From NCBI GenBank assembly GCA_016212855.1, contig JACRDP010000014.1:1-64000 (forward strand): a stretch of 64,000 bases of DNA. Direction: 5' to 3'. Position numbers and translations under genes: made by a program. This document shows positions 1,976-18,182 of this stretch, in pieces; positions within the stretch are counted from its first letter, which is position 1; every line of letters starts with the position of its first letter. The notes under the pieces were generated by a model. That model was not told where the DNA came from and made no database searches. It worked only from the letters and a program-made list of their open reading frames with translations. Source of the DNA: Elusimicrobiota bacterium. Its GTDB lineage: Bacteria > Elusimicrobiota > Elusimicrobia > UBA1565 > UBA9628.

Positions 1976-4429
1976 GTGCGTCGAGTGCTCTTCGCCCTCA
2001 CTTTTGTGGCCTCTATCGTGTGGGCGGGACCATCTATGGATAGCGGAACGAATCATCTTACGAGGAATGCGGACAACGCCGGCGGCGACAGCGCGACGTC
2101 GCCGACGAGCCGTCTCGTCGGCTCGGCAGGCGAGCCGGTTGCCTTTACGACGGCGGCGTCCGCCGGAAATACGAACGTCGTCCGCGCCGGCTGGGGAGAG
2201 CTGCACGCTTTTCCGAGGACGGTGACCGATCTGGGGGGCACGAGCATCGGAATCTCGAGCGTGACCTTGCAGTGGACGACGCCGGGCTACGACGGCCACG
2301 ACGGCACCCTTCAGATCGGAAGCACGTACTACATCAGCTTCGCGTCGTTCACCGTTCCCGACATCTTTTCAAACCACCGCCTTGCGAACATCTCGTTCTC
2401 GACGAACGGAGTCGTGCCGGGAGAGCAGGTGAGCATCGGGCTGATGGGCCTACAGTCGGGGACGACGTATTGGGCGCGTATCTGGACGACGGACGGAGAC
2501 AGCAATATCGCCTACGAGTCGAATCTCTCCTCCTTCGTCTTGAGCGGAGCGTTCGCGCCGACGTCGGGAGAATTGCTCACGGTCAACGTCACATCGATCA
2601 CCGCGTCCTGGGCGATCTCGTTCGCCGCGGAGAATTACCTGCTGGTCGCTTCGACGGCGGTGAACTATATTCCCGTCGCCGCGTCGTCGTTCACGGCGGC
2701 GACCACCGCGACCTTGACCGGGCTCGATCCGAACACGACCTACTTCCTCGGCGTGTCGGCGTGCCCGGGCTGCTCGGCGGTGACCTCGCTCGGATCGACG
2801 ATCACCTTGGCCGCCCCGGCGCTGAGCCTGTCCACGACGGCGGTCTCCTCGAGCACCATCAATCTCGTCTGGAACCCCAACGGCAACCCCGCGAATACGC
2901 GCTTCGTCGTGCGTCGGAGCACGGACAACATCAACTTCGTCTCGGCCGCGACCGTCACCGCGGCGGCGGTCAATTTCGCCAATCTGCTCAACGACACGAC
3001 GTACTACCTGTTCGTCGTCGCGCTCAACCAAGTCGGGACGCAGGCGCCGCCGTCGAACCTGCTCGTCGTCAGGACGCCGATCGGGCCGATTCCATACGCG
3101 CCCACCGGCCTGGCGGCGACGTCGATTCTGCTGGGCGCGAGCCTGACCTGGGATCCCCTCCCCCCGGACGGGGTGGGCGTGGGGCTGCTCTTCTACCGGA
3201 TCTCGCGCTCCACGAACGCCGGCTTCGGCTACGTCAGCGTGAGCACGACCTTAGCGAGTTCCTTTAGTGAGCGCCCGATGACCTTGGGGCCGACCTACTA
3301 CTACAAGCTCTCCGCGCGCGACATCGGCCAGGTCGAGAGCCCGTTCACGTCTACCGTGTCGGCGGTTCCGTTCTCGATCGCGCCGATGGAGCCCCTGGGC
3401 GTGAAGATCGTCCCGGGACCGCTGAGCGTGACTTTGTCCTGGTCGACGACGACGCGCTTCGGCGACGGGACGCCGTTCATCAGCACGGCCGCGCCGCTGG
3501 CCGACGAGTTCATCGGCTACCAGGTGATGCGCGCCAGCGACACGTGCGCGCTTACCTACGGCGACGTCTCGACCCAGCCGTTCACCGGCACGTCATTGAC
3601 CGACGTGACGGGCGGGTTGAACTATTTCTACCGGATCCAAGCGTACAACTCCGTCGGACCGTCGACCATCGCCGTGACCGTCTCGAGCTTGGGCGAGCGC
3701 AGCTACTTCCTCAGCGACTGCGCCTCGCGCGTCGTGCTCGACGACGCGACGGCCATGACGCTCAACGCGGGCGTGAACGGAATCGGCGACATCCGTATTG
3801 ATCGCCGGCTCCGGCCTGAGGACGTGCACGATGGGGTGTTCCAGTCCGCCAATTTCACGCCGATGCTCAACGGCGTGACGCCGCTCAATAATTATCCGCT
3901 GCCCAAGCCCGTGCGGATCGTCCTCCATTTCGAGATGCTCAACGGCAAGCCGTTCGCGCCGGCCGGGGTGATCGCCGAGGCTCCCAATGTGTCCGTCAAG
4001 AGCCTGGGCCTGTTCTGGTACAATGGCGCCGAGTTCAAGAAGGTCTATGGAACCGTCGACGCCCTGTCGCAAACCGTCACCGTGCAATCCCCGAACCTCG
4101 GCAACTATCAGATCCGGGCGCTCGCGCGCTCCGAAGGCACAGTGTTCGACCTGTCGAACATCTCGGGCCGCGCGATCACGCCCAACGGGGACGGTCTCAA
4201 CGACGTCGTGATCTTCACTTACGATCCCGGCCCCGGCAACGAGAACGTGACCGGCCGGATCTACGACGTGATGGGCTCCCACGTCGCGGACATGACCGCG
4301 GGGCTCGTGCCGAACACCTTGGTCTGGAACGGCCGCTCCGGCGGCCGCACGGTCGGCAGCGGGGCGTATATCTACCGGATTCAGGGCGGCGGCAAGACCT
4401 ATACCGGGACGGTCGTGGTGGCGAGATAA
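1976..4429 (+). CDS. Secreted fibronectin type III repeat protein with C-terminal FlgD/CHU-type Ig-like domain
   Basis: GTG start, signal peptide, repeated Fn3 signatures (LTGLDPNTTYFLGV, LLNDTTYYLFVVA), C-term ITPNGDGLNDVVIFTYDPG...GRIYDVMGSHV...LVWNGRSGG...GAYIYRI. Confidence 0.8.
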   Translation: MRRVLFALTFVASIVWAGPSMDSGTNHLTRNADNAGGDSATSPTSRLVGSAGEPVAFTTAASAGNTNVVRAGWGELHAFPRTVTDLGGTSIGISSVTLQWTTPGYDGHDGTLQIGSTYYISFASFTVPDIFSNHRLANISFSTNGVVPGEQVSIGLMGLQSGTTYWARIWTTDGDSNIAYESNLSSFVLSGAFAPTSGELLTVNVTSITASWAISFAAENYLLVASTAVNYIPVAASSFTAATTATLTGLDPNTTYFLGVSACPGCSAVTSLGSTITLAAPALSLSTTAVSSSTINLVWNPNGNPANTRFVVRRSTDNINFVSAATVTAAAVNFANLLNDTTYYLFVVALNQVGTQAPPSNLLVVRTPIGPIPYAPTGLAATSILLGASLTWDPLPPDGVGVGLLFYRISRSTNAGFGYVSVSTTLASSFSERPMTLGPTYYYKLSARDIGQVESPFTSTVSAVPFSIAPMEPLGVKIVPGPLSVTLSWSTTTRFGDGTPFISTAAPLADEFIGYQVMRASDTCALTYGDVSTQPFTGTSLTDVTGGLNYFYRIQAYNSVGPSTIAVTVSSLGERSYFLSDCASRVVLDDATAMTLNAGVNGIGDIRIDRRLRPEDVHDGVFQSANFTPMLNGVTPLNNYPLPKPVRIVLHFEMLNGKPFAPAGVIAEAPNVSVKSLGLFWYNGAEFKKVYGTVDALSQTVTVQSPNLGNYQIRALARSEGTVFDLSNISGRAITPNGDGLNDVVIFTYDPGPGNENVTGRIYDVMGSHVADMTAGLVPNTLVWNGRSGGRTVGSGAYIYRIQGGGKTYTGTVVVAR

Positions 4430-4857
4430 TGAGACAAGCGAAGAAGGCCGGACGGGCGGCGTTGATCGTGTTCGCGGCGTTCGCGTTCGCCTTGTTCGGG
4501 CTCGCGCTTTCGCGGGCGCAGAGCGGCAGCATCCAGTTCTATGGTCCCTTGTCCCGCGTCATCACGCCTAACGGTGACGGCATCAATGACCGCGTCTTCT
4601 TCTGCTTCGAGAACCCGTCGGACAGCGGCATCAGCGGCAAGATCTACACGTTGCTCGGCACCGAGGTCGCCTCGATCGGCGCGCGGACGGACCGGACCGG
4701 CGTCGCCGGCGTCGCCTGCCCCGCGTCCGTCATCCGGGCTCAGTTCGCGACGTGGGACGGGACGGCCGACAACGTGCGCGTGCGCAGCGGCCTGTACGTG
4801 TATCGCATCACTTCGGAGGATCAGGTTTTTTCCGGAACTTTGCTCGTTGTCCGTTAA
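4429..4857 (+). CDS. Small secreted protein made essentially of a FlgD/CHU-type C-terminal domain
   Basis: Signal peptide then VITPNGDGINDRVFFCFENPSDSGISGKIYTLLGTEVA...TWDGTADNVRVRSGLYVYRI; start overlaps the upstream stop (TAATG). Confidence 0.75.
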   Translation: MRQAKKAGRAALIVFAAFAFALFGLALSRAQSGSIQFYGPLSRVITPNGDGINDRVFFCFENPSDSGISGKIYTLLGTEVASIGARTDRTGVAGVACPASVIRAQFATWDGTADNVRVRSGLYVYRITSEDQVFSGTLLVVR

Positions 4858-4860
4858 TTT

Positions 4861-6861
4861 ATGAAACACATCCGCATCCGACGTATCGCGTGGAGCGCGC
4901 TGGCGGCGATGATCATCGCCCGCCCGGCGCTCGCCGCGTACGAGGATGTGGGCGTCGGCGCGCGCGTGTCGGGCCTCGGCCACGCCTACACGGCCGTCGC
5001 GGACGACGTGTATTCGATGTACTACAACCCCGCCGGCCTCGCCACGCTCGACCGGCCGGAGTTCGGCACGACCTACTCACGCCTGCTCACCGGTCTGTCC
5101 GACGGTTCGAACGTGCAGAACTCCTTCCTGGGCTACGCGCACCCCATCGACGGCGGCCGCCGGGGTACGGCCGGGGCGGCGTGGAACAATTTCGGCGTCG
5201 GCGGCCTGTACTCGGAAAACCAGCTGATGTTCTCCTACGGGCACAGCCTGTTCGCCCGCACCGTGCCCGACCGCTACTACCTCGGCGGCACGCTCAAATA
5301 CATGAATCGTTCGATCGGCGGCACCTCGGCGGCCGCCAACGGCATCTCCAACACCGGCGTCGCGACCGGAACCCCCGACCCCGGGCTGCAGAACACGTCG
5401 AAAATGAATATCGACGCCGATCTGGGCTTTCTCTGGCGCATCCGCCCGCGCTGGACGGCGGGTGTGATGATCCAACATCTGATGGAGCCGAACATCGGCT
5501 TCTCGGAATCGGACAAGCTCGGCCGCAACATCAAGCTCGGCGGCGCGTATAAGACGCCCTTCTCGACCTTGACCGGCGACGTGCGCTTCCAGAGCGCGCC
5601 GGACGGGTCCACCGACAAGATCCTCGCGGTCGCCGCCGAAAAGTGGCTGCCGACCTTGCTGCACGGCATGTTCGGCGTGCGCGGCTCGCTGTCGATGGGC
5701 AGCCGCGATTTCCGCCAGGTCGCGATCGGCCTCTCCTACAAGATCAACCGCATGCAGTTCGACTACGGCTTCGCGCTTCCCATCGGCGGCCTGAACTCGA
5801 CGTCCGGCAGTCACCGCCTCGGCTTGACGATGCGCTTCGGGCGGCCGAAGCAGGCGGAAGCCGCGTTCGGCGAGGCGATCCTCGAGAACCTGCGCGACCT
5901 CGCGGCGGTCGGCACCCCCGAGTTCCGCTATCAGATGGAAGACCTGGCGTTGTACAAGCGTACGGCGATCGACGAATTCCTCCGCCAGGCCAAGCTCGAC
6001 GCGAGCGCCGGACGCTTCTCCGACGCAGCGGACAAGCTCACCCAGGCGATCTCGCTGAAGCCCAAGGACCCGCGGCTGCAGCAGAGCCTGGAGCGCATGG
6101 TCGCGGTCGCCGACATCTACCCGGCGGTCAAGGATTATCAGACCGACGCGGCGCAGGCGGCCGTCTACGAGGGCGCGCTCGACTTCATTTCGGGCAACGG
6201 CAAGGAATCCCTGCGCAAGCTCGCGTACGCGGGTACTCTCAACCCGACCGACGAGCGCATCGAACGCCTGGCCAAGGCGGTCGAGGCCAAGAGCGGCCTG
6301 ACCCGCGAGGGTCCCCCGCCCGAGGATAGCGGCAAGGCGCCGACGATGGGCGCCGAGAAGGTCGTCGGCGGCACGATGGCTTTGATGGAGGTCGCTTTGC
6401 GCGAGCGCGACTTCGAGCGCGTCGTGAAGCTGGCCGACCAGGTCCTGCAGATCGACCCGAGCAACGCCCTCGCCTATAAGCGCCTGGGCGCGGCGCATTA
6501 CGCGCTCCACCACAATTCCGAGGCTCTCAAGGCCCTGCGCTCGGCCTATAAACTCGAGACCGATTCCGACTCGCGCAAACAGATCAAGAGCTATATCGAC
6601 GCCCTGCAATCGCTCATCGAGCGCGGGCGGCGCGACAGCGCCCCGGCCAAGACGGCCGAGCCCGTCAAGAGTTCCGGCTTGTCGCCCGTCGACATCGAGC
6701 GGCTGTACGAGCAGGGCGTCGATCTCTACGCTCAGGGCAAACTGACCGAGTCCGCCGCGGCTTTCCGCCGCATCCTCGAGTCCGAGCCCAACAACACCTC
6801 GGCGCGGCGCGCGCTCGATCGCGTGCAGTCGGAGATCATCACCGGAGGCCAGAAGAAGTGA
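4861..6861 (+). CDS. PorV/PorQ (UPF0164)-like outer-membrane beta-barrel protein with C-terminal TPR repeats
   Basis: AYEDVGVGARVSGLGHAYTAVADDVYSMYYNPAGLATLDRPEFGTTYS is typical of the PorV/OMP family; C-terminal half has TPR motifs (ALAYKRLGAAHYALHHNSEALKALRSAYKLETD). Confidence 0.75.
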   Translation: MKHIRIRRIAWSALAAMIIARPALAAYEDVGVGARVSGLGHAYTAVADDVYSMYYNPAGLATLDRPEFGTTYSRLLTGLSDGSNVQNSFLGYAHPIDGGRRGTAGAAWNNFGVGGLYSENQLMFSYGHSLFARTVPDRYYLGGTLKYMNRSIGGTSAAANGISNTGVATGTPDPGLQNTSKMNIDADLGFLWRIRPRWTAGVMIQHLMEPNIGFSESDKLGRNIKLGGAYKTPFSTLTGDVRFQSAPDGSTDKILAVAAEKWLPTLLHGMFGVRGSLSMGSRDFRQVAIGLSYKINRMQFDYGFALPIGGLNSTSGSHRLGLTMRFGRPKQAEAAFGEAILENLRDLAAVGTPEFRYQMEDLALYKRTAIDEFLRQAKLDASAGRFSDAADKLTQAISLKPKDPRLQQSLERMVAVADIYPAVKDYQTDAAQAAVYEGALDFISGNGKESLRKLAYAGTLNPTDERIERLAKAVEAKSGLTREGPPPEDSGKAPTMGAEKVVGGTMALMEVALRERDFERVVKLADQVLQIDPSNALAYKRLGAAHYALHHNSEALKALRSAYKLETDSDSRKQIKSYIDALQSLIERGRRDSAPAKTAEPVKSSGLSPVDIERLYEQGVDLYAQGKLTESAAAFRRILESEPNNTSARRALDRVQSEIITGGQKK

Positions 6862-8228
6862 CGATCCGCACGCGTCTGATCGTCAGCACCTTCCTGCTCC
6901 AGGTCTTTTCCATGGCCCTGCTCGGCTGGGGAGTACTGGCCGTGCGCCGGCAGTTCCAGGAGAACGACCTGTTGAAATCGGCGACGATGATCGAGCGCGC
7001 TGTGGAACGGGCCGCCTCGGATTCCCTCATTCAAAAGGACGACGTGGCTTTGCTCAGCTACATGAAGTTCCTGCTGGGGCAGTATCCGGCGATCTCCTCG
7101 GCGTCCATCCGTTGGAAGACCAAGGGACGGGAGCACAGCGCGACCGTAGGCATCGGAGCGCCAGGCTCGCAGACCCGCATGTCCCGCCTCACGGTGTCCG
7201 ATCCCGCGGATCCTCAGCGCGCGGTCGACATCGACCTGAGTCTCGACTACGGCGTTCTCGAGAAGCCGTTCTGGGAGGCGAACCGGCGCCTGGCGAAGAT
7301 CATTCTATCCGTGTGGGGCGTCACGAGCCTCCTGGGCCTGTTCGTTTCCTTCCTGATCGCGCGCGGACTGACCAAGCCGATCGTCGAACTCAGCCGCCTG
7401 GCCGGCGAGATCGGCGGCGGCAAACTCGGCGGCAAGCTCGCCTGGGACTCCGACGACGAGCTCGGCGGGCTCGTGCGCGCGTTCAACGGCATGTCGACGC
7501 GCCTCGAGGAGTTCGACACGGTCAAGCGCAACTTCGTCTCCTCGGTGACGCACGAGTTGCGCTCCCCCCTGGGCGCCATCGAGAGCTTCCTGCAGCTCAT
7601 CCGCGAGAAGGTCGCGGCGGGCGCGCCCGAGGGCTTCGCGCAGTCCAAGGACTACATCGAGCGCATCGCGGTCAACGTGCGCCGCCTGTCGGGCTTCATC
7701 AACGACCTGCTCGACGTGGCTAAGATCGAGAAGGGCAAGATGGAGTGCGTCCTGCGTCCCATGGAGCTCCCGGTCGTGGCCAACGAGGTCTGCCAGTTCT
7801 TCGAAGCGAAGGCTCTTCAGCAGGGAATCGCGATCACGAACCGCCTGCCGGCCCTGCCCTCCGTGCTGGGCGACGCCGACCGCGTGCGTCAGATTCTCGT
7901 CAATCTCGTGGCCAACGGCCTGAAGTTCACGGCCTCGGGGGGCCAGATCTGGATCGCCGGCGAGCAGTTCCGCGACGGCGGCGCCCGCTGGATCGAGGTC
8001 ACCGTCGGCGACACCGGCCGGGGCATGGACGCGGCCGATCGCGAGCGCCTGTTTCAGCCGTTTTCCCAGGGACGGAACATTTCCGAAGGCGTGACGGGTC
8101 ATAAAGGGACGGGGCTGGGTTTATATATCGTGAAGTCGATCGTGGATCAGCACGGCGGCAAGCTCGAGGTGCGTTCCGTCCCCGGTCAGGGGACGAGGAT
8201 CAGTTTTTCGCTGAAGGTCGCGGCCTAG
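6858..8228 (+). CDS. Membrane sensor histidine kinase (HAMP-HisKA-HATPase_c)
   Basis: VKRNFVSSVTHELRSPLGAIESFLQL (H-box), VNLVANGLKFTASGG (N-box), GDTGRGMD and GTGLGLYIVKSIV (G-boxes). Confidence 0.92.
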   Translation: MTIRTRLIVSTFLLQVFSMALLGWGVLAVRRQFQENDLLKSATMIERAVERAASDSLIQKDDVALLSYMKFLLGQYPAISSASIRWKTKGREHSATVGIGAPGSQTRMSRLTVSDPADPQRAVDIDLSLDYGVLEKPFWEANRRLAKIILSVWGVTSLLGLFVSFLIARGLTKPIVELSRLAGEIGGGKLGGKLAWDSDDELGGLVRAFNGMSTRLEEFDTVKRNFVSSVTHELRSPLGAIESFLQLIREKVAAGAPEGFAQSKDYIERIAVNVRRLSGFINDLLDVAKIEKGKMECVLRPMELPVVANEVCQFFEAKALQQGIAITNRLPALPSVLGDADRVRQILVNLVANGLKFTASGGQIWIAGEQFRDGGARWIEVTVGDTGRGMDAADRERLFQPFSQGRNISEGVTGHKGTGLGLYIVKSIVDQHGGKLEVRSVPGQGTRISFSLKVAA

Positions 8229-8246
8229 CCGCGGGGAGCAGGGATT

Positions 8247-8633
8247 ATGGCGACGAAAGTTTTGGTGATCGACGACGAAGAGGACTATCGCATCATCATC
8301 GAGGACGTCCTGCGCGGCGCGGGCATGGAGGTGCGGCTCGCCCGCGACGGCGAGGAAGGCCTGCGCATGTTGAAAGAAAAGCCGGCCGAAATCGTCCTCG
8401 TGGACTGGATGATGCCCAAGCTCGACGGCGAACATTTCTGCCGGGCCATGCGGGCCGAGGCGAAGCTCAAGGATCTGCCCGTGATCATGCTGACGGTCAA
8501 ACAGACCGCCGACGAGGAGCTCGAGGCCCTGCACTTCGGCGTGGACGACTTCGTGGTCAAACCGTTCAAGGCGCCCGAGCTGCTGGCGCGCGTGCGCGCG
8601 GCCCTGCGCCGCGCGGAGTCGAAGCCGGCGTGA
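8247..8633 (+). CDS. Response regulator receiver protein
   Basis: VLVIDDEEDYRIII...VLVDWMMPKLDG...VIMLTVK...DDFVVKPFKAPELLARV. Confidence 0.93.
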   Translation: MATKVLVIDDEEDYRIIIEDVLRGAGMEVRLARDGEEGLRMLKEKPAEIVLVDWMMPKLDGEHFCRAMRAEAKLKDLPVIMLTVKQTADEELEALHFGVDDFVVKPFKAPELLARVRAALRRAESKPA

Positions 8634-9628
8634 GCCGCAACGGCCTCATCGCCGGCGCCGCGGCGCTGGCTCTCGCGGGCGCGCTCGCCTGGGGTTTGCG
8701 TCCCGGCGCCCCCGTCCGCGTCGAAATTCCCTCCGGGCTGAGCGCGCGCCAGACTGCCGAGCTCCTGGGCCGCGAGGGCGTCGTTCAATCCGTGTTCGTC
8801 TTCCGCGTCTTCATCAAGCTGACCGGATTCGACCGCCAGCTCAAACCCGGAGCCTACACGCTGCGCGTTCGCGAATGGCCGACGGTCATCGCGCGTAAGC
8901 TGACCTTGGGCCTCACCGACGACATAAAGGTGACGATTCCCGAGGGCTACATGGCGAGCCAGATCGCCGAGCGCCTGGCCAAGGCCGGCGTCATCACGGA
9001 CGCGGGCGCGTTCCAGCGCTACGTGGACGCAAAACGTCTCGAGGGGCGCCTGTTTCCATCGACCTACCATTTCCCACCGCGCTACGCGCCGGAGAAGGCG
9101 GCCGCGGTCATGAACGCGGAGTTCGAGAAGCAGATCGGCGCCGCCTACGCCGCCGCCTCGCCGCGCCCCGAGCGGACGTTCGAAGAGACCTTGGTCCTGG
9201 CCTCGATCGTCGAGCGCGAGGCGGTGCTCCCGCAGGAGCGGCCGATCATCGCCGCCGTCTACCTCAACCGCCTCAAAAAGAAAATGCCCCTGCAGGCCGA
9301 TCCGACGGTGCAGTACGCGCTCGGCCGCGAGGATGGAAAATGGAAGAAGGGCCTGACGCGGTCCGATCTGCAGCTGCCCTCGCCTTACAACACATACGCG
9401 CGCCGCGGCCTTCCGCCCGGGCCCATCTGCTCGCCCGGCCTCGAATCGTTCCTGGGCGTTCTCAACCCCGCTAAAACCTCCGCGCTGTACTTCGTCGCGG
9501 ACACGACCGGCGGCCACCTGTTCTCGGAAACCAACGAAGAGCACTCGAAGGCGCGCATGCTCTATAAGAAGGAGCTGAAAAAGATCAAGGCGCAGCTGAA
9601 GAAGGACGCCGCGGCTAAGACGCCTTAG
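8630..9628 (+). CDS. mltG: Endolytic murein transglycosylase MltG (YceG-like)
   Basis: LVLASIVEREAVLPQERPIIAAVYLNRLKKKMPLQADPTVQYALG and SPYNTYARRGLPPGPICSPGLESFLGVLNPAKTSALYFVADTTGGHLFS. Confidence 0.93.
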   Translation: MSRNGLIAGAAALALAGALAWGLRPGAPVRVEIPSGLSARQTAELLGREGVVQSVFVFRVFIKLTGFDRQLKPGAYTLRVREWPTVIARKLTLGLTDDIKVTIPEGYMASQIAERLAKAGVITDAGAFQRYVDAKRLEGRLFPSTYHFPPRYAPEKAAAVMNAEFEKQIGAAYAAASPRPERTFEETLVLASIVEREAVLPQERPIIAAVYLNRLKKKMPLQADPTVQYALGREDGKWKKGLTRSDLQLPSPYNTYARRGLPPGPICSPGLESFLGVLNPAKTSALYFVADTTGGHLFSETNEEHSKARMLYKKELKKIKAQLKKDAAAKTP

Positions 9629-10784
9629 CGTCGCGCACGCGCCAGAACAGCGCCGCGGACAGAAGCCCCAGCGCCGCGCAGCCGCCCCACAAAGCACCCG
9701 GGCCCCAGGAGTCGAGGGCCGTCAGCCCCGCCCACGGCCCGACCATGAACGAGAGACTGAAGCCCATCATGTACAGCCCCATGTATTCCCCGCGCCGGCC
9801 CTCGGGAGAGATGTCGGTGACGTACGCCGTCATCGACGGCATCAAGGTCATCTCGCCGAAGGTCCACACCGCCGTCGCCGCGGCGATGCCCCAGGCGCCG
9901 CCGCCGAGGCCGTAGCCGCCGAAGCCCGCCGCGAACAGGGCGCAGCCCAGGGCCAAAGAGCGCCGGTAGGGCCAGGCCGCGGTCGCGTGATTGAGCGGAA
10001 TCTCGAAGGCGATGATCAGCGCCGTGTTCACGGTGAACAGCAGGCCGTAGAAAGACGTGCTCATTGCGAGGTCACGTACGAGATAGACGGGCAGGGCCGC
10101 CTCGTGTTGAAAAAAAACCAGGCTCACGGGGAATGCGGCAAGCAGGCACCAGAGCAGGAGCGGATCGCTGAGGCCGCGCGCGGACATGACGACTTCCTCG
10201 CCTTTCACGGCGCGCGCGGGGCGGGGCAAAGCGGCGACGAGCACGCACGCGGCCGCGAGCGTCGTGGCTCCGTCGACGATCCAGATCGCCGGGAACGACG
10301 CGGCGGCCAAAAAGCCGCCGAGGGCGGGGCCCAGGCTCATGCCGATGTTCACGGCGAGGCGATTGAGCGCGAAGGCCTGCTTGCGCATCTCGGGCGGCGC
10401 GCTCTCGGAGAACGCCGTCATCACCGCGGGCCGGAAGCCCTCGGTGGACAAGGCCCACAGCACGGTCATCGCGGCGACCTCACCCGGCGTCTTGGCCAGC
10501 GGGAACGCCAACATCACGAGCCCCGAAACGGTCAGGCAGCCGGTCATCATGCGCGTCGTGCCCCAGCGGTCGCAGAGCTTGCCCGCGACCGGGCCGGCGA
10601 GGAAGGCGACCGCGCCGTAGAGGCCGAGCATGGCGCCCGCGCGCGCGGGCGTGAAGCCGAGCGCGCGCGTCAGGTACAAGGTCAAAAACGGCAGCGCCAT
10701 CATGCCGGCGCGGTTGATCAGCGCGGACGCGGAGAGGATCCAGACTCGGCGGGGAAGCTTCGCCAGCGCGCGCCAGGATTCCAT
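9615..10784 (-). CDS. MFS transporter
   Basis: 12-TM hydrophobic pattern; GAVAFLAGPVAGKLCDRWGTTRMM loop motif. Confidence 0.85.
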   Translation of the reverse strand: MESWRALAKLPRRVWILSASALINRAGMMALPFLTLYLTRALGFTPARAGAMLGLYGAVAFLAGPVAGKLCDRWGTTRMMTGCLTVSGLVMLAFPLAKTPGEVAAMTVLWALSTEGFRPAVMTAFSESAPPEMRKQAFALNRLAVNIGMSLGPALGGFLAAASFPAIWIVDGATTLAAACVLVAALPRPARAVKGEEVVMSARGLSDPLLLWCLLAAFPVSLVFFQHEAALPVYLVRDLAMSTSFYGLLFTVNTALIIAFEIPLNHATAAWPYRRSLALGCALFAAGFGGYGLGGGAWGIAAATAVWTFGEMTLMPSMTAYVTDISPEGRRGEYMGLYMMGFSLSFMVGPWAGLTALDSWGPGALWGGCAALGLLSAALFWRVRDAKAS

Positions 10785-10833: not shown

Positions 10834-10909
10834 TGGTGGACGTGACAGGGATTGAACCTGCGACCTCATCCTTGCGAAGGATGCGCTCTCCCAGCTGAGC
10901 TACACGCCC
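10834..10909 (-). tRNA. tRNA-Ala (anticodon CGC)
   Basis: Minus: GGGCGTGTAGCTCAGCTGGGAGAGCGCATCCTTCGCAAGGATGAGGTCGCAGGTTCAATCCCTGTCACGTCCACCA. Cloverleaf stems match, anticodon loop TTCGCAA, encoded CCA. Confidence 0.95.
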
Positions 10910-10986
10910 GTCAGGACATTATGCCAAAAACACGGCGTCGGAGCAACGTGCGGCGCGGGCCCAGCGAAGACATACGCAATCCGATT

Positions 10987-11808
10987 CTAGCACGGAGGAG
11001 TTGCATTCTGCAGCCCGTCGCGCCCGGGCAGGCGGAAGCGGCCGAGCAGGGAGAGAGTGACGTCCGGCGTGCGCATGCCCAACGAGCAACCGTCGTGGAC
11101 GAGGTTTTCCGTCGGAGCGATATAGGCCTCTCCGGGGCGCATGCGCAGCTTGAGCACGGGATAGTCCGGGAAGCCGCGGCAGAAGGCCTGGGCGGCTCGC
11201 GAGCCGCTGGCATGGCGTGGTGTGCCCGATAGCTCGTAGACGCGCCGCATCGGAAGGTTGAGGAAAAGAAAAAAGCGGTCTTCGCAGCCCAAGTTTACGC
11301 AGATACGGTTAGGGGACAAGTGCCGACGCGAGACCGGCGCCCGGTACCAGTCGTCCACATGCAGTCCAATGCGGCGCCTTCCCACCGGGTTAATGGTCGT
11401 GGCTTCCAGTCCCGGGTCGTTGACGTGGATGCCGCCGGGCTCCCCATCGGGCTGGTGACCGGCGCCCCAGCGCTCGACGGCGTAGTCCAGGAAGGCCATC
11501 GCCTCGTGATTGTGGTTCCTCATCGAATGCCGGAAGGCCTCGGCTCGTCGCGCCCTCGCCGCGGCCTCGCGCAGTTCACGAAACGGGGCGAGCGCCGCAG
11601 TTGGCAGGCCGAAGAGGGCCAATGACGGCGGCTCGGCCTCGAGGCTCAGCGCGCGCCATTGAGAAGCGGTGAGCGGTCGCCACGGGCCACGCGGCACCAT
11701 GGAGCCCGGCTCGAAGCGCGGACTGCCGCCGCGGCGCGCCGGCTCCGTGCCCGCCGACGCTTCCAGACGGGAGCGGGCAGGGACAGCGACGCCTAGGCCG
11801 GCGAGCAC
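10987..11808 (-). CDS. Putative Fe(II)/2OG-type oxygenase-like protein (HxD...H...R), RiPP operon member
   Basis: Likely GTG start at 11808 (or ATG 11700), overlapping the rSAM gene stop. Contains IGLHVDDWYRAP (HxD), then NLVHDGCSLGMRTPDVTLSLLGRF (distal H and R). The 351-aa track ORF is over-extended upstream. Confidence 0.5.
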   Translation of the reverse strand: MLAGLGVAVPARSRLEASAGTEPARRGGSPRFEPGSMVPRGPWRPLTASQWRALSLEAEPPSLALFGLPTAALAPFRELREAAARARRAEAFRHSMRNHNHEAMAFLDYAVERWGAGHQPDGEPGGIHVNDPGLEATTINPVGRRRIGLHVDDWYRAPVSRRHLSPNRICVNLGCEDRFFLFLNLPMRRVYELSGTPRHASGSRAAQAFCRGFPDYPVLKLRMRPGEAYIAPTENLVHDGCSLGMRTPDVTLSLLGRFRLPGRDGLQNATPPC

Positions 11809-13733
11809 GCCTCGGCGGTCCCCGGAGCCGCCTTCCTTTTTGTCTTCTCCTCTGCCGGCGGGATGAACAGCGTTCCTCCCGCGTATTCGTTGTAGGGCAC
11901 CGAAGCCAGGTCGGCGAGCCGCGTCCAGCGCAGGAAGGGCGCCCCATTGGGACCTGCCGCAGACCGGACGAAGACGCAGCGGTGCCCGCCCGGCAGGTAC
12001 TTGAGCAAATGGTTGCGCAAGGGAGCCAGGTCCCGGCCGCATCCGCGTAGAGTCAGATCCGCCTTATCGGAGAAGAACGCCGAGGGCTGGAGGAGCACCG
12101 TCGCGGCGCTCGGCACGACCGGGATGCCGTGCGCGACGAGGTCGGTGGCCTCGTAAAAGGCCAGGCCCCCTGCCGGGTCGTAGCCGACATCGGCCAGCAG
12201 CGTGTCGAAGCAGGAGATACCCGGCAGGACGGTGGCCGTCCATCCCCGGGCTTGGGCGGCGCTGAGCAGGGCGGTGGAGACACTGTCGAAGACGCGCGGG
12301 TGCCCGGGTGTGAGCCAAGCCGCTGGACGGCGCTTTTCTGCCAACTCCAGCACGCGCCGCGTGACGTCGCAATAGTTGCGCGAGCGCTTGCGGCCGTCCT
12401 GATAGAGCGGCCAAAGGCTGACGCACTTGCTTCTCAGCTCACGAGGCAGCGCCTCGAGCTCCTCCTCACGCAGGTTGGTGCAGATGACGGCGCATTCCTT
12501 CAGGGCGTCGTAGGTCTCCATCGTCAGTTGGGAAGGGAAAGAGACGCCCGAGCCGAGCACGTAAAGGTCGGGGCCGCCGCGTGGAGGCTGCGCCAGTTCG
12601 TCTTCGGCTCTCTCGAGCACGACGTCCGCCACGGCTTGCATGTGGAAGCGGCAATAGTCGGTCTCAGAGGAGTCGAAGGTTCCCAGCTCGGCGAGCTTGT
12701 TGCTCGGGCAACCGCCTCCGCAGAGCGAGAAGTAGTCGCAAGTGCGTCGGCAGCGTTCGACGCCGCTGGCGATGTCGCGATGCGCGCGTAGGAAGCCGGG
12801 ATGCTTGGCCATGGACTTCCACGGGTCGGTCCGCACGTTTCCCCATTTGAAAGTTCCGTAGCGGGGATGGCTCGTGGCCAAAAGCTCGGGCGAGAAGGTC
12901 GTGTAATCCCCCTCCACGTCCACGTTCAAGATCGAGCCCGGCCGATTGTCGGAGCGCTGGAGGACGATGCCGTCCGGCGCGCTCAGATGGCTGCGCGTGT
13001 CGTCGAGCTCACGGATGCGGATGCCGGGAATGGACCGGCGGCGCTCGGCTATCCGGTTCAGGAAGCGGCGGTAGGCGGGCAGGCGCGAGGGTCGCGTGGT
13101 CCCGGAGCGCTTGTGCGTGCCCTCAGCCTCTTCCACGTTGAAGCCGACGCTGGCCGGGCCGAGGCTCTCGATGAAATCCCAGTAGGCGTCGGCCGCCATG
13201 AACGTCTTCTCCGTGGCCACCGAGAGCACCGCGAAGCCCAGGCCGTGCTCCTGAAGCTTGGCCACGCCGCGCATGGCCGCGTCGAAGGTGCCGCGTTCAG
13301 CGCGATCGACCCGATGCGAGTCATGCAACTCGCGAGGGCCGTCCAAGCTCACGCCCAACTGCACGTCCCAACGCTTGAAGAGCTCGCACCAGGCGTCGTT
13401 GATGAGGGTGGCATTGGTTTGGATGTTATGGCTCAAGGGCAGGCCGGCGGCCTTGAACCGCGCGAAGGCGTCCTCGTAGAACGCCGGAGGAACGGCCAGC
13501 GGCTCGCCAGCGTGCCAGACGGCGGTCAGCGTTTTCTCGGCCAACGGGACATCGCGCAAGAACCGCGCCAGCGCGTCCAGCGTCTCCGTAGACATCCGCC
13601 GCTTGTCCGCGCGGTTAGGCAGATAGCAGTACGAGCAGTCGCTGTTGCAGAACGGCGTCGGCTGGACGATCAGCAGGTCGATCGGGACCAGCTTTACGCC
13701 GGCGTCCGCCACGTCAGGGCACCCGCTTAACAA
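11793..13733 (-). CDS. Radical SAM/SPASM peptide maturase fused to C-terminal tetrapyrrole-methylase-fold (borosin N-methyltransferase-like) domain
   Basis: N-term QPTPFCNSDCSYCYLP (CX3CX2C), WHAGEPL, SLDGPRELHD, SPASM Cys cluster CRRTCDYFSLCGGGCPSN...DYCRF. C-term PDLYVLGSGVSFPSQLTMETYDAL and LTPGHPRVFDSVSTALLSAAQARGWTATVLPGISCFDTLLADVGYDPAGGLAFYEATDL. An alternative GTG start at 13712 sits just after the precursor stop. Confidence 0.85.
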   Translation of the reverse strand: MLSGCPDVADAGVKLVPIDLLIVQPTPFCNSDCSYCYLPNRADKRRMSTETLDALARFLRDVPLAEKTLTAVWHAGEPLAVPPAFYEDAFARFKAAGLPLSHNIQTNATLINDAWCELFKRWDVQLGVSLDGPRELHDSHRVDRAERGTFDAAMRGVAKLQEHGLGFAVLSVATEKTFMAADAYWDFIESLGPASVGFNVEEAEGTHKRSGTTRPSRLPAYRRFLNRIAERRRSIPGIRIRELDDTRSHLSAPDGIVLQRSDNRPGSILNVDVEGDYTTFSPELLATSHPRYGTFKWGNVRTDPWKSMAKHPGFLRAHRDIASGVERCRRTCDYFSLCGGGCPSNKLAELGTFDSSETDYCRFHMQAVADVVLERAEDELAQPPRGGPDLYVLGSGVSFPSQLTMETYDALKECAVICTNLREEELEALPRELRSKCVSLWPLYQDGRKRSRNYCDVTRRVLELAEKRRPAAWLTPGHPRVFDSVSTALLSAAQARGWTATVLPGISCFDTLLADVGYDPAGGLAFYEATDLVAHGIPVVPSAATVLLQPSAFFSDKADLTLRGCGRDLAPLRNHLLKYLPGGHRCVFVRSAAGPNGAPFLRWTRLADLASVPYNEYAGGTLFIPPAEEKTKRKAAPGTAEACSPA

Positions 13734-13995
13734 AGTTGAGGAAGTTGTTCCAGGGGATCTTGTCGAAGTTGTTCCACGGCTTCTTCTCGAAATTGTTGAA
13801 GGGGGCCTTGTCGAAGTTGTTCCAGTACTTCGCGAAGGCTAGATAATCCGCTTTGGCCCAGCCCTTCTTCTTCGCGCCTTTAGTGGCGGTCTTCTTGCGC
13901 GCCGCCAGAGTGCGGCGGAGGCGGCGGATACGAGCGGCGACTGTCTCCTTCTTTTTTGCCGGGCGCTTCTTCGAGACTCTCTTCTTAGCGGCCAT
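13714..13995 (-). CDS. Putative RiPP precursor peptide: cationic leader plus four [W/F]NNF repeats
   Basis: MAAKKRVSKKRPAKKKETVAARIRRLRRTLAARKKTATKGAKKKGWAKADYLAFAKYWNNFDKAPFNNFEKKPWNNFDKIPWNNFLNFVKRVP, immediately upstream of the rSAM gene. Confidence 0.8.
   Translation of the reverse strand: MAAKKRVSKKRPAKKKETVAARIRRLRRTLAARKKTATKGAKKKGWAKADYLAFAKYWNNFDKAPFNNFEKKPWNNFDKIPWNNFLNFVKRVP
13741..13824 (-). repeat. 8-residue (24-bp) core repeats WNNFDKAP/FNNFEKKP/WNNFDKIP/WNNF
   Basis: Aromatic residues at positions 58, 66, 74 and 82 of the precursor: exact 8-aa spacing. Confidence 0.85.
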
Positions 13996-14010
13996 GCTCC
14001 CCCCTGTGTA

Positions 14011-14916
14011 TCAACGCGACGTGACGTTTGCGCTCGAAAGATGGAACTCCGGCTCGCCCAACATGGCCTCGAGGACGGCGCGCGTGGCGGCGAAGTGGTT
14101 GCTGCCGTAGACCACCAGCACATCGCGCTCGCGCAGCAGGCGCCGCGACAGCAGCCGGATCAGCGACCGGTTGCGGGAGCGCTCGGTGGAGGCCGAGAGT
14201 CGCTGCGTGAAAAGCCTGCCGTACTGGCGAGGAGCGTCCTCGTCTGGATCGAAGCGGTCCGGCTCGAAGGCGAAGCCGTTGCGCTTCTGGTACCAACGGC
14301 GGAAATCCGCGTAGGTGAAGCGCGCCGCTGCGGCTTCGCCGGCCATGGCCTCGCGGTCGCCGCGGTTCTCCTTCCAGAGTCCCAGGATTCGGTCCGGATC
14401 CAGCCGGCCGCCGTTTCGCAGTATGGCTAGCGAGCGGAAGAAAGCGTAGCCGGCCAGATCCTCCCGCGTGAAGCCGTCGAACCTAGCCTGTTCGCCCTGG
14501 TTCTCGAGGGAGGATTCGCCGCCGACTGCGGGGATGCCCTTCTCCGCGGCCAGCATGGCCGTGTAGTAGGGCTCCCCCTCCTCGCAGAAATCGCCGCCGC
14601 AGGACTGCCGCGCCTCTTGGACAAATTCCGCCGCGTCCGCGAAGCGAGGCCCTCGGAAGCCCTCGATGACGGCCAGGCGCACGCGCCGGCCGCGCAGCGT
14701 TTCACGGATAAGGGCTAGCGTGGGGCCCTGCTTTGCATGCCGGGCGGCGATGAAGTAGAGGTTCATCCCATCTTTGTGGAAATGGGCCAAGAAGGGCGCC
14801 TCAGGCATCTCCACTCCGTCGCCGTCTCGAAGCAGGGAGAGGTCAGGCTCGAGTGAAGTCCCTCGCGCTGGCATCGCCAGGGCGGCGGCCAGTAAGAGGA
14901 TAGGAGGAAGCCTCAT
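14011..14916 (-). CDS. Secreted TIKI/TraB/ChaN-like protein (putative hydrolase)
   Basis: Signal peptide MRLPPILLLAAALAMPARG; LYFIAARHAKQGPTLALIRETLRGRRVRLAVIEGF, GGESS and VLVVYGSNHF motifs. Track ORF starts at 14934; the internal ATG at 14916 fits the signal peptide better. Confidence 0.45.
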   Translation of the reverse strand: MRLPPILLLAAALAMPARGTSLEPDLSLLRDGDGVEMPEAPFLAHFHKDGMNLYFIAARHAKQGPTLALIRETLRGRRVRLAVIEGFRGPRFADAAEFVQEARQSCGGDFCEEGEPYYTAMLAAEKGIPAVGGESSLENQGEQARFDGFTREDLAGYAFFRSLAILRNGGRLDPDRILGLWKENRGDREAMAGEAAAARFTYADFRRWYQKRNGFAFEPDRFDPDEDAPRQYGRLFTQRLSASTERSRNRSLIRLLSRRLLRERDVLVVYGSNHFAATRAVLEAMLGEPEFHLSSANVTSR

Positions 14917-14934
14917 GTTGCGATTATACACCAC

Positions 14935-15963
14935 TTACAATTCCCAGCGCCCTGCTTTTTTCAAGGCGGACAGGACGTCGTCGACGGCATGGTCCGCCAT
15001 ACGTCCCGGGGCCTGTAGCGAAAGGCCCGGGCCGAAGCGGAAGCCCCATTCGCGGGCTTTCGTCGGGCCGAAGAGCCCGACGCCCGGCACCCGAAATAGG
15101 TCGGCGGCGTGCAGCATGCAGGAGTCCATGCCGAGGAATCGGTCCGCCTGCGAGACGAGAGCGAAGCTCGTCGCCAAATCCAGGCCCCGGCAGTCGAGCA
15201 CGCGTCCCTTTGCCTCCCCGAGGTCAAGGTCCAGCGCGCATTCGCCGAGCAGGCAGACGCCGTAGTCTGGGTGCGCGGCCAGGAAGCGGCGCAGCGTGGC
15301 GCCGAGACGTTTGCGGCCCCATCGTTTCTCCCGCTTTGTTTCTCCGTGCACAGCCAACATTCTGGGCGTGCCCAGGAAGTGCCGACGCACGACGACGGCG
15401 TCCTTGACGCTGGCGGCCGGAAGGTGCGGCGGCTCGGAGAAGGATCCGATGTCGATGGGGCCGAGCACGGCGCGCGCCACCGAGAAGGTATGATCAGCGG
15501 AATGCTTCCAACGCCCTGGGTTGGCTCTGAGCCGGAACGCCGAGGTTAGTCCCACAGTGGGCACGGGCCCGAGAGCCGACATCAGCCGGTGCAGTGAGCT
15601 CGTCATCCAAGGTGAGAGCGAGATGAAGAGATCGCAGCGGCCCAACTCCTGGCGCGCCGCTTGGTCGTCGAAGTCCACCTTCTTCCCGCGTCGTTGCAGC
15701 TGGATGATGCGCTTCACCGGCAGTTCACTATACAGGAATAAGGGAGCGCAGGCCGCCCCGAGCAAAGTCAGGCGCCCGGCGAAGGCGCGCGCGAGTGCGC
15801 GCAAGGCTGGCAGGGCAAGGAGATGGTCTCCGATCCCGTTGTAAAAGAAAATGGCCGGCCGCTTCGTGGCGAGCAACCGCGCGCGTTCCGCGGGCCGGGA
15901 CTCGAACGTTGACGGCGAGTGTATCACCAGGCTGAGTGTAGCTCCGAGGCCACCTCCAGTCAA
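14935..15963 (-). CDS. Glycosyltransferase family 9 (heptosyltransferase-like)
   Basis: IFFYNGIGDHLLALPALRALARAF at the N-term; ATSFALVSQADRFLGMDSCMLHAADLFRVPGVGLFGPT at the C-term. Confidence 0.75.
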   Translation of the reverse strand: MTGGGLGATLSLVIHSPSTFESRPAERARLLATKRPAIFFYNGIGDHLLALPALRALARAFAGRLTLLGAACAPLFLYSELPVKRIIQLQRRGKKVDFDDQAARQELGRCDLFISLSPWMTSSLHRLMSALGPVPTVGLTSAFRLRANPGRWKHSADHTFSVARAVLGPIDIGSFSEPPHLPAASVKDAVVVRRHFLGTPRMLAVHGETKREKRWGRKRLGATLRRFLAAHPDYGVCLLGECALDLDLGEAKGRVLDCRGLDLATSFALVSQADRFLGMDSCMLHAADLFRVPGVGLFGPTKAREWGFRFGPGLSLQAPGRMADHAVDDVLSALKKAGRWEL

Positions 15964-16074
15964 GCCAACCTGCAGCCTGCAGCGCGGGTACGATGGAAGA
16001 CAGTTTTATCGCAAGATAATTCTGTCTCTCAAAGAGCATGGCACGGCGTTGAACAAATTCGGTAGGATGAGAAC

Positions 16075-18182
<2,108 letters not shown>

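Follow-up and report, generated by a model that had tools for sequence, protein, structure and literature searches.

A predicted triceptide/borosin hybrid cassette with a fused radical SAM-methyltransferase enzyme in an Elusimicrobiota genome

Two enzyme families that act on ribosomally synthesised and post-translationally modified peptides (RiPPs) stand closest to the locus described here, a five-gene cassette at 10987-15963 in the first 64,000 nucleotides of an Elusimicrobiota contig (JACRDP010000014.1; this whole stretch is hereafter the window). The first is the GrrM/OscB family of radical S-adenosylmethionine (rSAM) maturases (TIGR04261), which make triceptides. In their clusters a small precursor (TIGR04260) lies just upstream of the maturase; its leader is of the RLxxIR type, and its repeats are aromatic-X-Asn. 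OscB joins C7 of Trp or C4 of Phe to the C-beta of the Asn or Asp two residues on (Nguyen et al. 2020, as relayed in PMC11002830). The second family is the borosins, whose peptide alpha-N-methyltransferases have the TP_methylase fold and include OphMA and the split SonM/SonA system. Borosins are classified as types 0-XI; one class has no borosin-binding domain, and in type XI the N-terminal domain is unknown and is not described there as an rSAM domain (PMC11395268).

The cassette shares features with both families. Like GrrM/OscB clusters, it has a maturase over the family cut-off, with a small repeat precursor just upstream. It differs from them in that the maturase is fused here, and paired in three other genomes, with a predicted borosin-type N-methyltransferase, and in that its precursor falls under the TIGR04260 cut-off, is Lys-rich and has no signal peptide. 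It differs from borosins in that the methyltransferase is fused to a predicted radical SAM cyclophane synthase and the putative substrate resembles a triceptide precursor. Judging from the chemistry of these relatives, we think it likely that the cassette is a RiPP system combining triceptide and borosin chemistry. The GrrM-borosin combination was not described in the literature searched, which is weak evidence, subscription papers and most preprints lying outside it. Both enzyme families are known; as far as that literature goes, their joined or paired form would be new, a triceptide/borosin hybrid.

The fusion enzyme, its precursor and the oxygenase

An earlier reading of this DNA from its letters alone (the original prediction) proposed a RiPP operon of five co-oriented minus-strand genes. 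All five open reading frames (ORFs) were found within 10987-15963, and the computational evidence supports a RiPP operon. The features that concern the proposed chemistry are:

13714-13995, minus strand: precursor peptide, 93 residues, with a GrrA-type leader and four [WF]NNF repeats
11793-13733, minus strand: fusion enzyme (rSAM/SPASM plus methyltransferase), ORF of 646 residues, with TIGR04261 and OphMA/SonM matches
12603-13667, minus strand: GrrM/OscB domain of the fusion, 389 bits in the genome search
11793-12587, minus strand: predicted borosin-type methyltransferase domain of the fusion, by homology to OphMA and SonM
10987-11808, minus strand: oxygenase related to the Fe(II)/alpha-ketoglutarate enzyme MicC, about 273 residues, by homology to PDB entry 9vkm

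The fusion of an rSAM enzyme with a methyltransferase, proposed at the outset, is borne out by a single open frame (11793-13733) that matches Radical_SAM and TP_methylase at 57 bits each, both above Pfam cut-offs. The rSAM half spans residues 1 to about 380 and the methyltransferase half about 387-631. Residues 23-377 score 387 bits against NCBIfam TIGR04261 (GrrM/OscB cyclophane maturase; curated cut-off 310 bits), and in an alignment with four plasmid-borne GrrMs the CxxxCxxC cysteines (C29, C33, C36) and the SPASM cysteines (C328, C332, C338, C361) are invariant. The N-terminal half of an AlphaFold model of the fusion matches the fold of the rSAM-leader complex ChlB (9gm3). The rSAM half is predicted to be a GrrM/OscB-family cyclophane (triceptide) synthase, and its score over the curated cut-off supports the analogy with cyclophane makers drawn in the original prediction.

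The methyltransferase half (residues 389-631) matches solved borosin enzymes, namely OphMA (E 3e-17), dbOphM (E 1e-15) and SonM (E 2e-12), and the fold of the C-terminal half of the model matches OphMA and SonM. The best corrin enzyme, a precorrin-2 methyltransferase, reaches only E 0.003. Because OphMA and SonM match far better than these, a corrin or porphyrin methylase identity was rejected, and this half is predicted to be a borosin-type peptide backbone alpha-N-methyltransferase. The active site of OphMA comprises Y63, Y66, R72 and Y76; three of these four aligned residues are kept in the fusion, where Y444, R450 and Y454 are the equivalents of Y66, R72 and Y76. In SonM, R67, Y71 and Y58 correspond to OphMA R72, Y76 and Y63 (PMC8429565).

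The peptide beside the rSAM gene, taken as a repeat precursor from the start, has a Lys/Arg-rich N-terminus with the GrrA-type leader motif RIRRLR, followed by [WF]NNF motifs at residues 58, 66, 74 and 82. When the peptide is shuffled 100,000 times, no permutation carries even two such motifs. Its score against TIGR04260 (GrrA/OscA1) is 18.3 bits (E 0.0027), under the curated cut-off of 31. A profile constructed from 62 candidate precursors that lie ahead of other GrrM genes, excluding the window's closest relatives, gives it 34.5 bits. Shuffling the whole peptide 2000 times yielded at best 14.9 bits, and shuffling only the leader 2000 times at best 28.8, so this score was never matched. The leader, and not merely the aromatic core, therefore fits the GrrA type. 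Aromatic-X-Asn motifs are present in this peptide adjacent to the GrrM domain, and W-N-N and F-N-N agree with the OscB linkage rule.

The oxygenase matches no Pfam or NCBIfam family. Its relationship to a PDB entry named 'alpha-ketoglutarate-dependent non-heme iron oxygenase MicC' (9vkm; E 1.2e-23) extends over the catalytic half and includes the H-x-D ... H triad, GLHVDD and LVHDG aligning to the MicC motifs, which bears out the earlier description of the gene as oxygenase-like and predicts an enzyme of this kind. No publication on MicC was found in the same literature. At seven other loci (Nostoc, Adonisia, a Streptomyces plasmid, and Flavobacteriales, Chitinophaga, Acidobacteriota and Deltaproteobacteria metagenome-assembled genomes, MAGs) a homologue is found no more than 5 kb from GrrM, so the oxygenase is a recurrent GrrM partner. 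At the Streptomyces plasmid locus (L043, 829-12224) GrrM and the MicC-like oxygenase adjoin genes for a lantibiotic dehydratase and a LanC-like protein, which may make this a further hybrid RiPP cluster. An Acidobacteriota GrrM locus (L087, 4590-7578) has, besides a MicC-like oxygenase, a second, truncated copy of the C-terminal part of GrrM.

Read from the sequence, the likely start of the fusion is the GTG at 13712, one or two nucleotides past the precursor stop, and that of the oxygenase is the GTG at about 11808, rather than the listed ORF end at 12042, so that it overlaps the fusion stop. Such spacing is as expected of a translationally coupled operon.

Recurrence of the gene set and its insertion in the window

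Among the best 80 of 523 matches in a scan of genome contigs, one locus, in a Bradyrhizobium MAG (L047), matches beyond the rSAM domain. It comprises a precursor (4633-4923), GrrM (4950-6155), a separate methyltransferase (6189-6983, 51% identical) and an oxygenase (7056-7931). Sampling 300 genomes within the same family yielded a second cassette, L170, with precursor 5497-5790, GrrM 5805-6977 (54%), methyltransferase 7145-8125 (51%) and oxygenase 8290-9258. A third cassette, L188, came from 277 genomes sampled from the phylum of an Acidobacteriota MAG. Its precursor (5308-5670) has WANWNNWGNWNNW-type repeats at its end; GrrM (5765-7021, 40%) is followed by a methyltransferase (7018-7806, 33%) that overlaps the GrrM stop, and the oxygenase (9174-10121) is on the opposite strand. 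L047 and L170 are alphaproteobacterial, and GrrM and methyltransferase are split in all three. The original prediction had named the lack of a conserved pairing in related genomes as a refutation; GrrM, methyltransferase and precursor do recur together, in split form, and oxygenase homologues accompany them. As the four-gene set is present in three other genomes, the pairing is no accident of one genome. The occurrence of borosin-type methyltransferases beside a wholly different RiPP maturase suggests that both classes are more open than their classification implies.

The pairing is rare: among 342 genomes of the window's phylum no second GrrM exceeded the cut-off, and a sample of 290 genomes from the class of L047 gave no further methyltransferase of the GrrM-linked type. 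A search of viral contigs found no relatives. Between L047 and L170 the methyltransferase is as constrained as GrrM, with ratios of nonsynonymous to synonymous substitution (dN/dS) of 0.077 and 0.087, rough values given a dS of 1.8-2.0, near saturation.

Since the related genes are separate, and the source assembly, of 30 contigs, has a completeness of 72.66%, the fusion might be an assembly or sequencing error that joined two adjacent genes. The frame, however, runs through a short linker without a stop, and such an error would have to delete a stop and an entire intergenic stretch and yet keep the frame. We find this explanation scarcely credible.

The five cassette genes form one insertion, mapped with these further features:

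10834-10909, minus strand: tRNA-Ala(CGC), found by ARAGORN; left edge of the insertion, outside the cassette
10910-16074, no strand: whole inserted block, from the empty site in G203, G209, G198, G196 and G197
14011-14934, minus strand: putative secreted TraB/TIKI-like protein, from family conservation and invariant residues
14935-15963, minus strand: GT9 (heptosyltransferase-like) gene, by PF01075

The block is flanked by the tRNA gene and by a cyclase gene at 16075, which are direct neighbours, about 75-110 bp apart, in the five same-genus genomes listed; the block is therefore a single insertion, whose genes were acquired, or retained, together. In G203 an MFS gene and then mltG follow in the same order as in the window, and a -10-like box of the tRNA is recognisable beside both tRNAs. 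The G+C content of the block does not depart from its surroundings.

That five unrelated genes lie together by chance, and that the Lys/Arg-rich peptide is no precursor, is very improbable. The TraB/TIKI-like and GT9 genes are indeed missing from the three related cassettes, and the TraB/TIKI-like family mostly has no rSAM neighbour. Against this, the peptide's leader agrees with the GrrA profile, a single insertion accounts for the block, and precursor, GrrM, methyltransferase and oxygenase occur together in three other genomes, which largely refutes a chance grouping for these four.

Several further observations concern related loci. The L047 cassette sits inside a cell-division and cell-wall gene cluster (2676-10372), between murD and ftsW-like/murG genes. 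In L170 the cassette is preceded by a co-directional ABC exporter gene (2776-4584), whose protein could export the product. A GrrM gene (L121) is on a contig binned as the archaeon Nitrosopumilus, which may be mis-binned. Lone borosin-like methyltransferases, with no adjacent GrrM, occur at L171-L173 and L132-L134, the L132 copy being fused behind TPR-like repeats.

A proposed pathway and its alternatives

We propose a substrate, an order of steps, sites of modification and a product as follows. The GrrM/OscB domain would bind the GrrA-type leader of the 93-residue precursor, as in ChlB-leader complexes, and, using its [4Fe-4S] clusters, would form three-residue cyclophanes on W-N-N and F-N-N by joining an aromatic ring carbon to the C-beta of Asn. 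The fused borosin-type domain would use S-adenosylmethionine (SAM) to N-methylate the backbone of that peptide, and the fusion would bring one leader-bound substrate to both active sites. The fusion may stand in for the borosin-binding domain with which split borosins dock their substrate. The MicC-like Fe(II)/alpha-ketoglutarate oxygenase would then hydroxylate the core. As the most likely product we envisage an N-methylated, probably hydroxylated peptide that contains several three-residue cyclophanes. With somewhat greater reserve, we lean towards one polypeptide with two activities, cross-linking and backbone N-methylation, both directed at one ribosomal peptide, as the fused member of a cross-phylum class of triceptide/borosin/Fe-alpha-ketoglutarate-oxygenase hybrids.

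Such a hybrid would matter for several reasons. Cyclophane cross-links and backbone N-methylation both stiffen peptides and shield them from proteases, and their combination in one scaffold is sought by chemists. A natural dual enzyme with split relatives in other phyla would make it possible to test how two RiPP enzymes use a common leader, and could serve to prepare N-methylated macrocycles.

Several points weigh against this proposal. Among all loci examined, the fused form is present in the window only. In the GrrM tree the window, L047 and L170 form a clade (support 100/97) and L188 lies elsewhere; because the four methyltransferase-linked GrrMs do not group together, the pairing may have had two separate origins, though a single clade is not rejected (p-AU 0.107). 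The model of the fusion is of moderate quality, with a mean predicted local distance difference test score (pLDDT) of 70, poorest in the methyltransferase half. No borosin-binding domain was recognised by sequence on precursor or enzyme, no structural search having been made, and the inserted block contains no dedicated transporter. Finally, the position of OphMA Y63 (SonM Y58) is W441 in the fusion.

This last substitution, with Trp also in L047 and L170 and Leu in L188, would suit a plain triceptide cluster, in which GrrM makes the cyclophanes and the TP_methylase-like domain is an inactive module that holds the substrate or dimerises. However, SonM-Y58F remains active, with activity reduced about 10-fold (PMC8429565). 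The equivalents of Y66, R72 and Y76 are kept in all four proteins, the SAM-pocket region matches OphMA and SonM, and the dN/dS of the methyltransferase is as low as that of GrrM. We regard an inactive domain as unlikely.

A shade less likely again is that this peptide is the methyltransferase's substrate but is methylated off the backbone, on a side chain (Asn, Lys or Trp) or a terminus. The TP_methylase fold serves many acceptors, and cross-links crowding the core could block backbone methylation; the closest characterised relatives are, however, backbone alpha-N-methyltransferases.

Accessory genes and other observations

The TraB/TIKI-like gene, whose likely start is the ATG at 14916, encodes a protein with a signal-peptide-like N-terminus. 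Its family is found in 35 of 342 same-phylum genomes, and H66, E91 and H280 are invariant across 20 relatives. The TIKI/TraB assignment made in the original prediction is weak: one of the 20 relatives matches PF01963 (E 3.4e-4), whereas the window protein has no Pfam match, and its model, though good (pLDDT 88), matches no PDB fold. Among predicted models it has one good match, an uncharacterised giant-virus protein, those named TraB being weak. As a marker of rSAM clusters the gene was rejected, since, with flanks of about 1.5 kb checked at the other loci, only the window and G196 among the 35 genomes have an rSAM neighbour. The GT9 assignment, in contrast, stands, at 25.2 bits against PF01075 (gathering cut-off 22), the start probably being internal to the listed ORF. 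Glycosylation of the product, which had also been suggested, is unsupported, since all three related cassettes lack GT9. Our guess is that the TraB/TIKI-like protein is a periplasmic peptidase or product handler, and, likewise as a guess, GT9 may be a sugar transferase in the pathway.

A RiPP-like cluster in the same genus (L131, G196:C56, 3853-9030) has two SPASM rSAMs, a SPASM-only-like protein, and GT9-like and TraB/TIKI-like genes around a Lys-rich peptide of 94 residues (4891-5175) that ends in Tyr-x-Asp-His repeats. It shares the GT9-like and TraB/TIKI-like genes with the window; its rSAMs, however, are different, falling below the GrrM cut-off and over no NCBIfam peptide-maturase cut-off, and it has no methyltransferase or oxygenase homologue. 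Together, these two cases, a thin basis, suggest that RiPP clusters of the genus can include such accessories. Two or three rSAM/SPASM genes also lie in a row in two other same-genus genomes (G203:C1:1583966-1588093 and G200:C114:23392-25528), where they are possible further peptide-modifying clusters.

The neighbouring MFS gene was rejected as an exporter for the cassette, since it is present at the empty site in G203. A defence role was likewise rejected, PADLOC yielding only weak viperin matches that are explained by the shared rSAM fold. Elsewhere in the window, 11-1879 is a long repetitive coding stretch with candidate frames on both strands, encoding VTAPSESFVVSTEAA-type repeats on the plus strand and Arg-rich sequence on the minus strand.

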